A DNA stretch of 36,277 bases from an uncultured Oscillochloris sp. (GTDB taxonomy: Bacteria; Chloroflexota; Chloroflexia; Chloroflexales; Chloroflexaceae). The notes beneath the pieces are model-generated. The model did no database searches and was not told the origin of the DNA. It was given only the letters and a program-made list of their open reading frames with translations. Positions within the stretch are counted from its first letter, which is position 1. Every line of letters starts with the position of its first letter. Positions 19,764 through 29,929 of this stretch are shown here, piece by piece. The stretch is taken from contig CAIXLU010000409.1 in the NCBI GenBank assembly GCA_903920315.1, forward strand, positions 1-36,277. The letters are read 5' to 3'. A program made the translations under genes and the position numbers.

Positions 19764-20705
19764 ATGCGCGATCTCCGCGATAGCTCCGGGATTACCCCTC
19801 CTCCGCCCGTTGTGACGCCCGTTACGAGAACGAGCGGCGGGATTCGCGGTGTTCTGAGTCATTCGATCACGCTTATGAAGCCGGTGACGTGGTTTGCGCC
19901 CGCATGGGCCTTTCTCTGCGGCGCGGTGGCAAGTGGGCAACTTGGCCTCTCTTTTGATGTGATTGGTCGTCTGTTGCTCGGCATTCTGATGGCCGGGCCG
20001 ATCCTTACCGGACTCTCGCAGGTGGTCAATGATTACTGCGACCGCGAGGTAGATGCGATTAATGAGCCGCAGCGACTCATTCCCTCGGGCAGAATTAGCC
20101 TGCGCCACGTCTATATTCTCACGATTGTACTGACGTGGATCGGCTGTAGCCTCGCTATTTTTCTTGGTCGTGAGGTGGCCCTCTATGTGGGCATCGGCTT
20201 CATCTGTGACCTTTCCTATATCGTAAAACCGCTGCGTGGCAAGCGTAATGGCTGGGTGGGCAATACGCTGGTGGCGATCTCGTATGAGGGGCTGGCATGG
20301 CTTGCGGGCCACGCAGCCTTTGATCAGATCACCGGCCAAAGTCTCGCCGTCGCAATGCTCTATTCGCTTGGTGCCCACGGAATCATGACCGTCAATGACT
20401 TCAAGAGCATCGCGGGCGATACCCGCATGGGCATCCGCTCTATCCCGGTGCAGTATGGCAAGGTGATGGCCGCTCGCCTCGTGGTGATCACCATGGGCGT
20501 TGCACAAATGGGGGTGATCGGTCTGCTCTTCTGGTGGGGCCATCCGGTTGCGGCTTCTGTCGTTGGTCTGCTCTTGGCCGCGCAAAGCATCCCGAATGTG
20601 CGTTTCATCCGCGACCCGGAGCATAACGAGGTTTTCTTCAACGCCACAGCGATTATGCTGTTTGTGTGGGGGATGCTCGCTGCTGCGATTGGGCTGGCAG
20701 GCTAG
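19764..20705 (+). CDS. bchG: Bacteriochlorophyll a synthase (bacteriochlorophyllide prenyltransferase)
   Basis: 313 residues, an UbiA-superfamily membrane protein with about eight or nine helices. The first aspartate-rich motif is QVVNDYCDREVDAINEPQR, which with the IPSG that follows is the hallmark of chlorophyll/bacteriochlorophyll synthases. The second loop has HGIMTVNDFKSIAGDTRMG. The enzyme joins geranylgeranyl or phytyl diphosphate to bacteriochlorophyllide a. Chloroflexales also carry a related BchK for bacteriochlorophyll c; assignment to BchG rests on the puf/bchP neighbourhood. The ribosome site is weak (GAGA at 19755-19758). bchP follows after 49 bases. Confidence 0.92.
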   Translation: MRDLRDSSGITPPPPVVTPVTRTSGGIRGVLSHSITLMKPVTWFAPAWAFLCGAVASGQLGLSFDVIGRLLLGILMAGPILTGLSQVVNDYCDREVDAINEPQRLIPSGRISLRHVYILTIVLTWIGCSLAIFLGREVALYVGIGFICDLSYIVKPLRGKRNGWVGNTLVAISYEGLAWLAGHAAFDQITGQSLAVAMLYSLGAHGIMTVNDFKSIAGDTRMGIRSIPVQYGKVMAARLVVITMGVAQMGVIGLLFWWGHPVAASVVGLLLAAQSIPNVRFIRDPEHNEVFFNATAIMLFVWGMLAAAIGLAG

Positions 20706-20754
20706 GACGGGGCGCATCGCGATGCACCCCTACGGTTTTCCAGGGGGAAACTAT

Positions 20755-21987
20755 ATGGCACCTCGGGTTCTGATTATCGGCGCGTCTGTCGGCGGGGCTA
20801 CGGCGGCGATCACGCTACGCGGGCTGGGCATCGAGACGGTGATGATTGAGAAGGAGTTGAGTAGGGCGAAGCCGTGCGGCGGCGCCATACCCCCGGCTGC
20901 CTTCCGCGAGTTCGATCTCCCAACCCACCTCATTGACCGGAAGGTCAAGCACTGCGTGATCATTTCGCCATCGGGACAGGAGACAAGCGTCCCTGTCGCT
21001 GGCTCTGTCCCTACCGACGATGACTATGTGGCGATGGTGCGCCGTGAGATCTTTGATGGCTACTTGCGCGAACGCGCCCAGGAGCGCGGCGCGGATCTGA
21101 TCCACGCCCAGCTTACGAATCTGGACGTGTCAGCCTCTGGCGTGCGTGCCCGCTACCGCTCGATGTCTGACGGCAGCGAACATACAATCAATGCCGATGT
21201 GGTGATTGGTGCCGATGGGTCGTACTCCCCTACCTCTAAGCTTCTCGGCCTGCCCGCCCTGCCTCGCGCCATCGCAATCCAAGAGCGCATTGCGCTCCCC
21301 GCCAGCCAGATGGCCCGCTGGGAGGATAGGGCGGATATTTACCTCGGCCAGGAGGTCAGCCCTGATCTCTACGCCTGGGCATTCCCAAAGCAGGATCATA
21401 TCGCTATTGGGATCGGCGCAGGCCCTGGACATACCCAGCGTGCGAAGGAGCTTTTGATCAACCTCAAGCGTCGGCTTGGCCCGGCCCTCAATGGTGGACG
21501 GGTTATTCTGCGCGAGGCCCACGCTCTGCCGATGGAGCCGCGTAAGCAGATGGCCTTCGACCGTGCGATGCTCATTGGCGACGCCGCCGGTTTGGTTGTC
21601 CATACCTCGGGCGAGGGCATCTACTGGGCAATGAAAAGTGGAGAGCTTGCCGCCCAGGTACTTGGACAGCACCTCGACGTGCCAACGGCGCAGAACCTGC
21701 GCGCCTACGAGCGTAAGTGGTGGAAGCAGTACGGCACCATGTATCAGTTCTTACGCATCCTGCAATGGTGGGGCTACGGTAACGAACGGCAGATGGAGGT
21801 TTTTACCGAGATGTGCCGCAACCCCGATGTGCAGCGGCTTACGTTCGATAGCTACATGCACAAGACGATGGTTCCTGCCCCGTGGGCCGTCCAGATGAGA
21901 ATGACATGGGACATCATGCGCGCCCAGGTTCGCAACTATGCCCGTCGGCGCACCCCGCTTCGCATCACTGAGGCACTGAGGCACTGA
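20755..21987 (+). CDS. bchP: Geranylgeranyl reductase
   Basis: 410 residues. N-terminal FAD-binding motif VLIIGASVGGATAAITLRG (5-23), ELSRAKPCGGAIPPAAF (substrate/FAD region) and the second FAD motif MLIGDAAGLVVHTSGEGI are those of BchP/ChlP. The enzyme reduces three double bonds of the geranylgeranyl tail to give phytylated bacteriochlorophyll a. ATG 20755 follows AGGGGGAAA; a longer reading upstream would overlap bchG and is rejected. The last codons and stop lie in a triplicated 8-base repeat (CACTGAGG, 21966-21989). Confidence 0.94.
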   Translation: MAPRVLIIGASVGGATAAITLRGLGIETVMIEKELSRAKPCGGAIPPAAFREFDLPTHLIDRKVKHCVIISPSGQETSVPVAGSVPTDDDYVAMVRREIFDGYLRERAQERGADLIHAQLTNLDVSASGVRARYRSMSDGSEHTINADVVIGADGSYSPTSKLLGLPALPRAIAIQERIALPASQMARWEDRADIYLGQEVSPDLYAWAFPKQDHIAIGIGAGPGHTQRAKELLINLKRRLGPALNGGRVILREAHALPMEPRKQMAFDRAMLIGDAAGLVVHTSGEGIYWAMKSGELAAQVLGQHLDVPTAQNLRAYERKWWKQYGTMYQFLRILQWWGYGNERQMEVFTEMCRNPDVQRLTFDSYMHKTMVPAPWAVQMRMTWDIMRAQVRNYARRRTPLRITEALRH

Positions 21988-22055: not shown

Positions 22056-22817
22056 TTACTTCACCGTGAGCTGTCCCGCCATACCGGCCGCATAGTGGCC
22101 GGGGAAGGTGCAGAGGAAGGTGTAGATACCGGCAGCGGGAGCCTTGAATGTGAGAGTCCCCGTCGTACCAGCGTTGGTGATCGGCATTGCCGCGAGCAGA
22201 CCCTTCGTGTCGCCCGGAGGCACGGCACCAGCAGGGTTACGCGCCTTTGCCATTGCGGCACTAGCGGCGGCAACAGCGGCATCAACACCGCTACTTTCGA
22301 CCAGCACCCAGTTGTGCTGCACGGCGACGGAGTTATTCTTGAAGTTTACCGTGTAGACTGTGCCTGCGGTGGCATCCAGCGCGGTCTTATCGAAGGCAAG
22401 CAGGTCACCGTCCGAACCGAGATCCAGAGGAGAGCCGGTGCCGGTGGCGATGGCCGGGCCGACCGGTGTGGTTGAGACGCCAGCGAGAGGTGTGGGGGCG
22501 GCTGCCGGAGCGGCGGCGGCGGCGGTAGGAGCCGCTGTGGCTGCCGGGGCGGCGGCGGCGGGATCTGCTGTAGCGACCGGGGCGGCGGCGGCAGGATCCA
22601 CCGTGGCTACCGGGGCTACCGGGGCCGCTACTTGTCCCCCGCCCAATGCACCAACGGCGAGCATGATGATGAACCCGATGACGCCGACCGCGATGGCAGC
22701 CGCGATGTACAAGATAAGGGGAGGGCCACCTGCCCCGCCACCGTTAAAGAACGACCCGCCTTCGTTACGATCCGAACCCCCAGAGCCGCGAAAGTTTCCT
22801 GATCCGCGCCAGCTCAT
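22056..22817 (-). CDS. Auracyanin (membrane-tethered type I blue copper protein)
   Basis: 253 residues: a glycine-rich N-terminus, one membrane helix (about 33-57), an Ala/Pro/Thr linker with near-repeats of APVAT(V/A)DPAAAA (about 64-112), then a cupredoxin domain (about 125-253). The four copper ligands are visible: His168 (VQHNWV), Cys236, His241 and Met246 (FLCTFPGHYAAGMAG). Auracyanins carry electrons from alternative complex III to cytochrome c-554 in filamentous phototrophs. The helix-plus-linker layout resembles auracyanin B rather than a lipobox-anchored form. AGGAGG five bases upstream fixes ATG 22817. It faces bchP and sits in the same cluster as pufC. Confidence 0.92.
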   Translation of the reverse strand: MSWRGSGNFRGSGGSDRNEGGSFFNGGGAGGPPLILYIAAAIAVGVIGFIIMLAVGALGGGQVAAPVAPVATVDPAAAAPVATADPAAAAPAATAAPTAAAAAPAAAPTPLAGVSTTPVGPAIATGTGSPLDLGSDGDLLAFDKTALDATAGTVYTVNFKNNSVAVQHNWVLVESSGVDAAVAAASAAMAKARNPAGAVPPGDTKGLLAAMPITNAGTTGTLTFKAPAAGIYTFLCTFPGHYAAGMAGQLTVK

Positions 22818-22913
22818 ACGAGCCTCCTCTTCCATAGAGTATCTGCTTGCCACACACCGCACTGCGTAGTGTATCACAAAATGACAAAACCGTTGCAAAT
22901 AATACATACTATA

Positions 22914-22978
22914 GCACACACCTTTCTGCGGCATCTCGGGTACTGATATTTCGATAATACACGCAAAAAGGTGTGTGC
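22914..22978. promoter_or_regulatory. Inverted repeat in the divergent auracyanin/LysM control region
   Basis: GCACACACCTTT (22914-22925) and AAAGGTGTGTGC (22967-22978) are exact reverse complements separated by 41 bases, in the 286-base gap between divergent genes. The spacing fits two operator half-sites rather than a terminator. A possible minus-strand -35, TTGCAA, lies at 22898-22893; its -10 is unclear. Confidence 0.5.
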
Positions 22979-23030
22979 ATTTTGAACCCGTCCTGACTTT
23001 GCTCATGCCCTGAATATGCCAATTAAGTAG

Positions 23031-23059
23031 TTGACATGCCTCCATCTGGCTGTTACAAT
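23031..23059 (+). promoter_or_regulatory. Sigma70 promoter of the LysM lipoprotein gene
   Basis: Perfect TTGACA (23031-23036), 17-base spacer, TACAAT (23054-23059). Transcription would start about 38 bases before the GTG start codon. The short leader holds an eight-G tract (23092-23099) in ribosome-binding position. Confidence 0.78.
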
Positions 23060-23103
23060 CGCCGGTTGTGCAGTCATTCACATGATGCGATGGGGGGGGT
23101 ACC

Positions 23104-23535
23104 GTGTCTACAGGGGATCGCTCAACGTTCTGTCGTGTGCGCTCCGTTGGAGGTCTTGTCATACTCAGCATAGCCCTACATGCGTGTACGCCACTTGAGC
23201 CTCCGCCGCGCACACTGCCCACGCTCCCCGCAGTGCTTCATATCACTCCGGCACCGACACTTGATATTGACGCGACGGCCACATCCTATGCCAGTGTTGT
23301 GCGCCCTTCACCGACACAGGCGGCGCTCTATACGGTACAGGTTGGCGATACACTGACCGGTCTGGCCGAGCGATTTAGCACCACTGTCGAGTCACTCACA
23401 GCAGCCAACGGCATCACCGACCCCAACTCGCTCCAGCCTGGGCAGACATTGATCATCCCCTCGCTCCTGCGCACCCCGGTTGCCGGAACTCCCGTTCCTA
23501 ACGTGACTCCCTCGCCTACCGTATCTACGCCCTAG
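23104..23535 (+). CDS. LysM-domain lipoprotein
   Basis: 143 residues. The signal peptide ends in lipobox LHAC (Cys28), then a Pro/Thr-rich spacer, one LysM domain (about 75-119; YTVQVGDTLTGLAERF, AANGITDPNSLQPGQTLIIP) and a Pro/Thr-rich tail. LysM binds the glycan of peptidoglycan, so the protein should tether the membrane to the wall. No catalytic domain is attached. The start is GTG at 23104, preceded by the run of eight G at 23092-23099 instead of an ordinary ribosome site; no upstream ATG is in frame. It has its own promoter and is divergent from auracyanin. Confidence 0.85.
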   Translation: MSTGDRSTFCRVRSVGGLVILSIALHACTPLEPPPRTLPTLPAVLHITPAPTLDIDATATSYASVVRPSPTQAALYTVQVGDTLTGLAERFSTTVESLTAANGITDPNSLQPGQTLIIPSLLRTPVAGTPVPNVTPSPTVSTP

Positions 23536-23560
23536 ATTCAAAATCCGTCGCAAGACTCAC

Positions 23561-23589
23561 TTGACTCTGGATAAAAAACTTAGTATAGT
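23561..23589 (+). promoter_or_regulatory. Sigma70 promoter of a short RNA gene
   Basis: TTGACT (23561-23566), 17-base spacer, TATAGT (23584-23589). It lies 25 bases after the LysM stop codon and points into a 207-base space that contains no ordinary gene before the terminator at 23729-23767. Confidence 0.75.
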
Positions 23590-23645
23590 ACGCTCTGTAG
23601 GCTAATCCGCAACAATGCCTTCCAGGCACAAAGGAGGTGATGCCC

Positions 23646-23693
23646 ATGATCATAAGCAAGCGTATGGGTGTCACCGTAGGTGAGGCCCTCTAG
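23646..23693 (+). CDS. 15-residue ORF with near-perfect ribosome site (leader peptide candidate)
   Basis: The peptide reads MIISKRMGVTVGEAL and stops at TAG. AGGAGG at 23632-23637 is eight bases from ATG 23646; ATG 23640 is also in frame but too close. The ribosome site complements the 16S 3' end better than most in the window. The coding part overlaps the stems of the surrounding RNA, which suggests translation-coupled folding. It could instead be a free small protein. Function unknown. Confidence 0.5.
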   Translation: MIISKRMGVTVGEAL

Positions 23694-23728
23694 GGTCGCC
23701 CCAGCGGTGACATCCGGATCCCATTTGT

Positions 23729-23767
23729 CGAAGGCCCCTGCCAGTGGCAGGGGCCTTCGGCGTTTTT
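23729..23767 (+). terminator. Rho-independent terminator of the short RNA
   Basis: 13-bp perfect GC-rich stem (23729-23741 with 23747-23759), 5-base loop CAGTG, followed by a five-T run (23763-23767). The T-run is on the plus strand, so it ends the plus-strand RNA and not metK, whose stop codon is 30 bases further. Confidence 0.9.
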
Positions 23768-23796
23768 CGAAAACCTTGTCAAACGTATGAGGTAGG

Positions 23797-25011
23797 CTAC
23801 AGACCAGCGGCGCGGCGCAGATCCTCGACCTTGTTGGTCTGCTCCCAGGGCAACTCAATGTCGGTGCGACCGAAGTGGCCACCGGCTGCCGTCTGGCGGT
23901 AGATCGGCCGACGCAGATCCAGGTCGCGGATGATCGCGCCGGGACGCAGGTCGAATACCTCGTTGATCGCCTTGACAATGGCCTCATCGGAGACCTGGCC
24001 GGTGCCGAAGGTCTCGCCGCTGATCGAGAGCGGGCGGGCCACGCCGATGGCGTAGCTGAGCTGGAGTTCGAAGCGGTCGGCCAAACCAGCGGCGACCACG
24101 TTCTTGGCCACCCAACGCGCTGCGTAGGCTGCCGAGCGATCTACCTTGCTTGGGTCTTTGCCCGAGAACGCGCCACCGCCGTGGCGAGCCACGCCGCCGT
24201 AGGTGTCCACAATGATCTTGCGCCCGGTCAGGCCGCTGTCGCCCATCGGGCCACCCACCACGAAGCGCCCGGTCGGGTTGACAAAGTATTTCGTCTTCTC
24301 GTCGAGCCACTCGGCGGGGACGCTCGACCGGATCACGTCCTCGATCACATCCTCGCGAATCTGCTCCTGGCTCACGTCAGGAGAGTGCTGGGTGCTGATC
24401 AGCGCCGTGTCCACGCGCACCGGCTTGCCGTAGGCATACTCCACCGTCACCTGGCTCTTGGCGTCCGGGCGTAGGTAGTCCAATGTGCCGTTCTTGCGCA
24501 GTTCGGTGATCCGGCGAATCAGCCGGTGGGCTAGGGCGATGCTGGCCGGCATTAGCTCGGGCGTTTCATTGCAGGCAAAGCCGAACATCATGCCCTGGTC
24601 GCCCGCGCCAACGGAGTCAACCTCGGCGTCGGTCATCCCGCCGCTGCGTACCTCAAGCGCCTTATCAACGCCCTGGGCGATGTCGGGCGACTGGCCGTGG
24701 ATCGCCACCAACACGCCGCAGGTGTCGGCGTCAAAGCCGAAGCTGGCGTCGGTGTAGCCGATATCCTTGACCGTCGTGCGGACGATCTCCTCAATCGGAA
24801 TATAGCCCTTGGCGTAGGTTACCTCGCCGAGGACGACGATCAGGCCGGTGGTGGTGGCTGTCTCCACTGCCACTCGCGCCCGTGGGTCGTGATCCAGGAA
24901 CGCATCCAGGATCGCGTCGCTCACCTGGTCGCACAACTTATCTGGGTGCCCGGCGCTTACCGACTCACTGGTAAAGACAAACTTCGGCGACTTCGTGAAT
25001 GTGGTTGACAT
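23797..25011 (-). CDS. metK: S-adenosylmethionine synthetase
   Basis: 404 residues. All MetK signatures are present: [20 protein letters not shown] with the ATP-binding His, [16 protein letters not shown], the flexible-loop region, [11 protein letters not shown] and [19 protein letters not shown] with the phosphate-loop lysines. It makes SAM from methionine and ATP. GAGGAG ten bases upstream supports ATG 25011 over the in-frame ATG at 25029. It is the last gene of the riboswitch-controlled SAM-cycle unit, 76 bases after ahcY. Confidence 0.97.
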
Positions 25012-25048
25012 AATCAGTATACTCCTCAAGAGTCTTAACTTAAATTGG

Positions 25049-29728: not shown

Positions 29729-29742
29729 CAATCGGCATTCCT

Positions 29743-29885
29743 CTCATCTTTCGGCGGGTACACGAAGACCGCCGCAGGAGTTAGCACCGTCCTTCCGCAA
29801 CGCTGAATTATGAATGTCGCATTCAGCACTGTTCAAGGTGGTTGCCGGGCGTCATCGGGCCAGTCCCTCAGCCCATCGAGATGAG
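29743..29885 (-). promoter_or_regulatory. SAM-I (S-box) riboswitch aptamer
   Basis: Read on the minus strand, all conserved parts of the S-box are in order: P1 CTCATC (29885-29880) closing with GATGAG (29748-29743), GGGCTGAGGGACTGGCCC, GATGACGCCCGGCAACC, a variable hairpin GCTGAATG...CATTCATAATTCAGC, GGTGCTAACTCC and GAAAGATGAG. Downstream come a terminator and mtnA. SAM binding should stabilise P1 and the terminator and switch off the whole methionine/SAM-cycle unit. Confidence 0.96.
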
Positions 29886-29929
29886 TTATCTAAAGTCACC
29901 GATTGTGCATCAGGTGAACATTGGCCGCG

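Follow-up and report, generated by a model that had tools for sequence, protein, structure and literature searches.

A standalone single-copy RNA gene of Chloroflexota with a micro-ORF and a putative three-segment Shine-Dalgarno switch

The window, i.e. the whole stretch of 36,277 nucleotides that was analysed, carries a compact transcription unit on the plus strand at 23561-23767, between a LysM lipoprotein-like gene and the convergent metK (Table 1). Elsewhere in the window are the genes of bacteriochlorophyll synthase (bchG) and geranylgeranyl reductase (bchP) at 19764-21987 (+) and, on the opposite strand to these, an auracyanin-like blue copper protein gene at 22056-about 22700 (-), which together indicate a phototrophic Chloroflexales genome. 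The LysM gene has a near-perfect promoter of its own (TTGACA-N17-TACAAT, 23031-23059, +; 11/12 matches, with TG before the -10).

Table 1. Features of the RNA locus and its two neighbouring genes.
Feature	Positions	Strand	Remarks
LysM lipoprotein-like gene	23104-23535	+	Upstream neighbour of the RNA gene
Sigma-70-type promoter TTGACT-N17-TATAGT	23561-23589	+	TTGACT 23561-23566, TATAGT 23584-23589; 10/12 matches
5' hairpin/box GCC-TTCCA-GGC	23617-23627	+	Class-wide consensus approximately CCGNNCAGG
Shine-Dalgarno (SD) sequence AAAGGAGGTGAT	23630-23641	+	12-nt perfect complement of the 16S 3' end
Segment A (GGTGATGCCC)	23636-23645	+	SD and sequence up to the start codon; partner of B, hides the initiation site
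15-codon micro-ORF MIISKRMGVTVGEAL	23646-23693	+	ATG at 23646; stop TAG 23691-23693
Segment B (GGGTGTCACC)	23666-23675	+	Within the ORF; partner is A or A'
Second SD-like sequence AGGTGA	23678-23683	+	Shortly 5' of the stop codon; in most class members
Segment A' (GGTGACATCC)	23706-23715	+	SD-like; just past the stop; rivals A for B
Intrinsic terminator	23726-23767	+	17-pair stem 23726-23762 and T-run
metK	23797-25029	-	TIGR01034; next gene, on the opposite strand to the RNA gene

An earlier reading, made from the sequence without database searches, had claimed for this site a near-consensus promoter, a strong ribosome site before a 15-codon ORF, an 8-bp stem, two competing partners for the motif ATGGG and a strong terminator with a T-run, and all of these were found. 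The promoter scan of 22500-24800 gave five promoter-like sites against 0.7 expected, and on the minus strand within the ORF region a single weak 9/12 site. The SD is perfectly complementary to the 16S 3' end ATCACCTCCTTT, as read in six related genomes. The 8-bp stem TGTCACCG/CGGTGACA joins 23669-23676 with 23705-23712 and in the minimum free energy (MFE) fold belongs to a stem of 12 bp. The motif ATGGG (23664-23668) has possible CCCAT partners both at 23643-23647, over the start codon, and at 23720-23724, and this competition is a glimpse of the main feature of the locus, a predicted three-segment SD / anti-SD / anti-anti-SD switch.

In a blastn-type search at E ≤ 1, 40 of the 41 family genomes gave a match; almost every match was strong, with one strong copy per genome. 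The pattern scan of 85,000 species genomes gave about 60 true loci, all in Chloroflexota or in apparently mislabelled MAGs, and these loci included Chloroflexus, Oscillochloris, Chloroploca, Viridilinea, Roseiflexus, Herpetosiphonaceae, Ardenticatenia and Anaerolineae. The pattern-scan matches outside Chloroflexota lacked both the pairing of B with A' and the ORF length, and we regarded them as chance. Two MAGs labelled Spirulinaceae (L079) and Gracilibacteria (L113) carry the Chloroflexota RNA and are probably mislabelled or mixed bins. A phage origin was rejected, as the strict pattern had no matches in viral contigs.

The covariance model R1, built from 35 family members, detected the RNA in 135 of the 158 genomes of the class, including 89 of the 93 high-quality ones, almost always as one copy, and in 71 of the 400 genomes of the phylum sample. 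The second model, R2, matched 112 of the same 400 genomes, 78 of them at 30 bits or more; among the 198 Actinomycetota genomes used as a control there were three matches at E ≤ 0.001, all weak (≤ 26.8 bits). Chloroflexota matches at 25-30 bits were accepted only where they had been read and the architecture was present, and the 20 new weaker matches that were read nearly all had the SD, the micro-ORF, a complementary B and a stem after it. Outside coding genes each genome has the string AAGGAGGTGATGCC just once. A repeat family was rejected, since nearly all genomes have one copy. Two copies in different neighbourhoods were present in the Roseiflexaceae-like genomes G052, G061 and G070, and in one Chloroflexus genome a second exact SD string falls in an apparent coding gene. 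The relatives compared share ancestry and are not independent of each other. The RNA gene is real, single-copy and apparently uncatalogued; its range takes in almost every genome of the class and many others of the phylum Chloroflexota.

The promoter score was at least 9/12 in 101 of the 117 loci (mean 10.0, compared with 6.7 in shuffled sequences), and in the 117 relatives' loci the -10 ended at a median of 44 nt 5' of the SD. A terminator was found in 109 of 115 relatives, against 26.6 expected, and the conservation of both signals points to an independent transcription unit. The downstream gene lies on either strand about equally (~50/50), and the genes in this position include metK, L25, methyltransferases, a GDSL lipase, an iron-dependent repressor, an SMC-like ATPase, DUF1684 and SmpB. 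Because the neighbours vary, the RNA is not a leader; the sequence-only reading had come to the same view from the lack of a downstream gene on the strand of the RNA, and metK is indeed convergent. Also its suggestion of a self-contained regulatory RNA or small-peptide gene is supported by the conserved promoter and terminator and the varied neighbours.

A LysM gene is directly upstream on the same strand in 50 of the 117 loci, in several families of the class (for example in the window, L073, L156 and L182), and this synteny is an ancestral linkage that has often been lost. That the RNA would be a 3' UTR of the LysM gene was rejected, as the promoter between the two is conserved despite the linkage. 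The locus is often within a few hundred bases of the end of a draft contig, as if beside repeats (L153, L170, L178, L180, L191, L198, L200 and others). In L152, from a Herpetosiphon-like genome, the RNA locus is convergent with a 23S rRNA gene.

Three segments are conserved in the RNA: A with the SD, B (GGGYRTYRCC) in the ORF and A' after the stop. Since A and A' each have their complement in B, the pairings A:B, which hides the SD, and B:A', which leaves it free, are mutually exclusive. In the family alignment A:B was paired in 100% of 350 cells and B:A' in 93.4%, the latter with 23 two-sided changes against 9.1 expected. An alignment of 82 sequences extending beyond the class (A3), whose fitting followed the B:A' structure, had two-sided changes in every one of its 13 modelled pairs (10 of B:A' and three of the 5' hairpin). 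The whole structure had 100 two-sided cells, compared with 22.7 ± 3.6 when shuffled and at most 32 when slid. Each of the three pairs of the 5' hairpin showed such changes, and 89% of its cells were paired.

Although A:B was not included in the model of the 82-sequence alignment, it was paired in 95.7% of the cells, and sliding the 3' partner by 1-3 columns lowered this to 30-64%. Inside the class A is nearly invariant and the changes are mostly one-sided G-C/G-U swaps, so they cannot be counted as covariation. In deep branches the 3' half of A and B co-vary (GATGCCC/GGGCATC, GTGCAG/CTGCAC, GCGGA/TCCGC, GTCG/CGGC). Furthermore, in a 29 x 29 matrix of duplex energies, some rows of which are related to one another, the pairing of each A with its own B was better than the cross pairings (interaction -2.15 kcal/mol; reached in none of 10,000 permutations). 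In about half of the loci B:A' pairing did not go beyond the per-locus shuffle at p ≤ 0.01.

Folding of the window RNA ending at the stop gave A:B as the MFE structure, with the SD and start codon covered (-31.2), while with A' present B:A' (-47.3) was favoured over A:B (-41.8) by 5.5 kcal/mol. The mean openness of the SD over 113 loci was 0.42 before B, 0.21 after B and 0.34 after A', and remained at 0.21 with A' shuffled. The predicted opening of the SD by A' is thus in the expected direction and modest (0.21 to 0.34). The full-length window RNA folded with z = -5.0 (0 of 200 shuffles), a value that owes much to the terminator, as z was -1.9 without it.

An in-frame ORF of 13-18 codons was found in 113 of the 117 loci. 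The spacing from ATG to B was 17, 20, 23 or 26 nt in 88 of 97 loci, belonged to one other phase in nine loci of other lineages and to the third phase in none, whereas the spacing from the stop to A' was evenly spread over the three phases (19/18/17). Since the first spacing keeps the frame and the second does not, the ORF is maintained, and the micro-ORF is probably translated. The reading frame across B differs in Ardenticatenia- and Anaerolineae-type members, whose peptides (WASPE, AAASLL) have nothing in common with the GITxEV of the others. Because these deep branches read B differently, what is conserved as the product is not the sequence of the peptide; as judged from the reading frames, the ORF is conserved across deep branches and the peptide is not. 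The sequence-only reading depended on the stems and ORF being conserved in relatives, and both proved to be so class-wide and in many deeper branches.

The stop is typically 3-12 nt 5' of A', which would place a terminating ribosome between B and A'. Often there is another SD-like motif (GGAGGT or GGTGA) 5-8 nt 5' of the stop (in 73 of 105 loci, with a mean of -7.7 kcal/mol, compared with -5.2 kcal/mol in shuffled sequences), and this motif could hold the terminating ribosome. Directly downstream of the start, most loci (e.g. ATGAGTGATAGTAAG) have the two other frames dense with stop codons: a +1 stop at ATGA is present in 93 of the 117 loci and a +2 stop within two codons in 101, often with TGA, TAG and TAA following consecutively. 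The AGT serine codons of the micro-ORF are retained even in GC-rich genomes.

The sequence-only reading had matched the element to no known family, and Rfam agreed with this, giving no match at the gathering threshold for the window element or its divergent relatives. At permissive thresholds CC2171 (20.6 bits, cut-off 75) and the rnk leader (36.4 bits, cut-off 55) appeared as sub-threshold look-alikes; they follow the layout of a stem plus terminator and so do not indicate membership. The covariance model of the Downstream-peptide / glutamine riboswitch (RF01704) had no match in the window or in the divergent relatives, and that of Chloroflexi-1 (RF01698) none in any locus searched. No SAM riboswitch was found at the RNA gene; the sole SAM match of the window (RF00162, 69.9 bits) is at 29741-29887 (-), upstream of metK-ahcY on the same strand, and represents ordinary methionine-cycle control. 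The main texts of three Breaker-lab surveys (PMC11109978, PMC8632094, PMC6429828) include no such Chloroflexota motif. Thus, the RNA appears to be absent from Rfam and from the motifs described in the main texts of these surveys, and it was rated as a new family among the SD/anti-SD switches with short ORFs.

The RNA resembles leader-peptide attenuators (erm, trp and tnaC type, and the uORF motifs of PMC8632094) in its short ORF with a good SD, a terminator nearby and a ribosome-dependent choice between mutually exclusive stems, the translation being here deduced from conservation of the frame. Unlike them, it is not followed by a regulated gene on its strand and ends at its terminator, and the gated site is the SD of the micro-ORF itself. 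With type I toxin mRNAs (AapA1, PMC6733600; hok) it shares a small ORF on an independent transcript and, according to the folding model, an early stem that would close the SD and a later competing one that would free it. Unlike the toxins, its peptide has 13-18 residues, is hydrophilic (MIISKRMGVTVGEAL and MSSHGTGIADEVAS are short, hydrophilic examples) and is not conserved in sequence over the phylum; furthermore, the gene is single-copy and near-universal in the class instead of sporadic; as for an antisense antitoxin RNA, the minus strand of the ORF region showed just the one weak 9/12 promoter-like site. In each of the two comparisons a defining feature is missing, the hydrophobic toxin or the downstream gene.

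Dual-function small RNAs (RNAIII/hld, SgrS/SgrT, Spot 42/SpfP) are autonomous and have a promoter, a small ORF and a terminator, as does the Chloroflexota RNA, which differs from them in that its conserved core is the SD/anti-SD switch itself and that it has no known trans pairing target. Chloroflexi-1 RNA, described from Chloroflexus aggregans only (PMC2864571), is likewise a candidate RNA of Chloroflexus, but none of the loci searched matched it. In the Downstream-peptide (RF01704) and yfr6 RNAs of cyanobacteria an aptamer in the 5' UTR is conserved and the ORFs encode 17-100 aa (PMC2864571). Both they and the Chloroflexota RNA join a conserved RNA to a short, free-standing ORF whose indels keep the frame; in the latter the switch lies within the ORF and past its end, and Rfam gives no match. 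The Downstream-peptide RNAs are the nearest free-standing short-ORF RNAs, and they do not have the layout of the Chloroflexota RNA.

The reading that we favour, at about even odds, is that of a standalone micro-mRNA, single-copy in Chloroflexota, which operates as a bistable switch coupled to translation, has a role in trans or in housekeeping, or buffers initiation capacity. The sequence itself shows the gene's own promoter and terminator, an ultra-strong SD at the start of the ORF of 13-18 codons, the order of the segments and two mutually exclusive pairings open to B, to the SD region (A:B, closed) or to A' past the stop (B:A', open). During RNA synthesis A:B would form first and keep the site closed, and once A' has been made B:A' would take over and expose the SD. 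A ribosome translating the ORF would then open B and halt at the edge of A', and upon its departure B would choose anew between A and A'. The conserved function would thus be the act of translation and not the peptide sequence, and the RNA may report or buffer initiation capacity (free 30S or initiation conditions). As for the output, it is a guess that it acts in trans, by way of either the free RNA or the RNA bound to the ribosome. A more specific proposal, a phylum-wide housekeeping RNA that senses initiation capacity, in which translation of the 15 codons resets the switch and the effector is the RNA instead of the peptide or a downstream gene, is tentative and on balance doubtful.

Alternatively, the gene could encode a functional peptide of 13-18 aa, with the RNA structure merely setting its dose. 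The ORF is kept in frame, and the peptide is fairly conserved within the class (SKRMGVTAGEAR) and well conserved in Chloroflexaceae (M-x-SKRMGVTAGEAR); the third codon positions after B are the most variable (0.34, compared with 0.21 and 0.27). Much of this conservation is however forced by B, and in the Ardenticatenia- and Anaerolineae-type members the other frame of B yields unrelated peptides while A:B:A' persists, which makes this explanation unlikely. Ranking after it, and also unlikely, is a trans-acting RNA that mainly binds the 16S 3' end as a 30S decoy or sponge or targets the SDs of further mRNAs through B, a mimic of the anti-SD; the ORF would just control which of the segments is free. 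The 12-nt perfect complement, the single occurrence of AAGGAGGTGATGCC per genome outside coding genes and the lack of a cis target would fit this, but a decoy requires neither a reading frame nor a stop position, and yet both are conserved.

A ligand- or protein-sensing element, in which a factor on the 5' box (CCGNNCAGG, or GCYATC in deep branches) tips the balance between A:B and B:A' and the gene under control is the micro-ORF itself, as for Downstream-peptide RNAs, is improbable: a conserved box does lie between promoter and SD, but it is tiny, has no aptamer-like fold and differs between branches, and no Rfam riboswitch matched. Highly improbable and largely refuted is a cis leader or attenuator of a neighbour, or a 3' UTR of the LysM gene, which the frequent LysM linkage would favour but which the intervening promoter, the following terminator, the varied downstream genes on both strands and the many members without a LysM neighbour contradict. 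A chance or decayed element, for which nothing was found in favour, is refuted by the class-wide conservation, the covariation and the conserved frame of the ORF, and has practically no probability left.

Few single-copy RNAs are conserved throughout a bacterial class, and most of those are essential (tmRNA, RNase P RNA, 6S and SRP RNA). The Chloroflexota RNA covers nearly all genomes of its class and reaches deep branches of the phylum. A tiny ORF coupled to its own initiation site with no downstream gene suggests that either translation itself is the signal or there is a new output in trans. If the RNA indeed is a sensor of initiation capacity, it would represent a kind of global translation regulator that has so far not been described.
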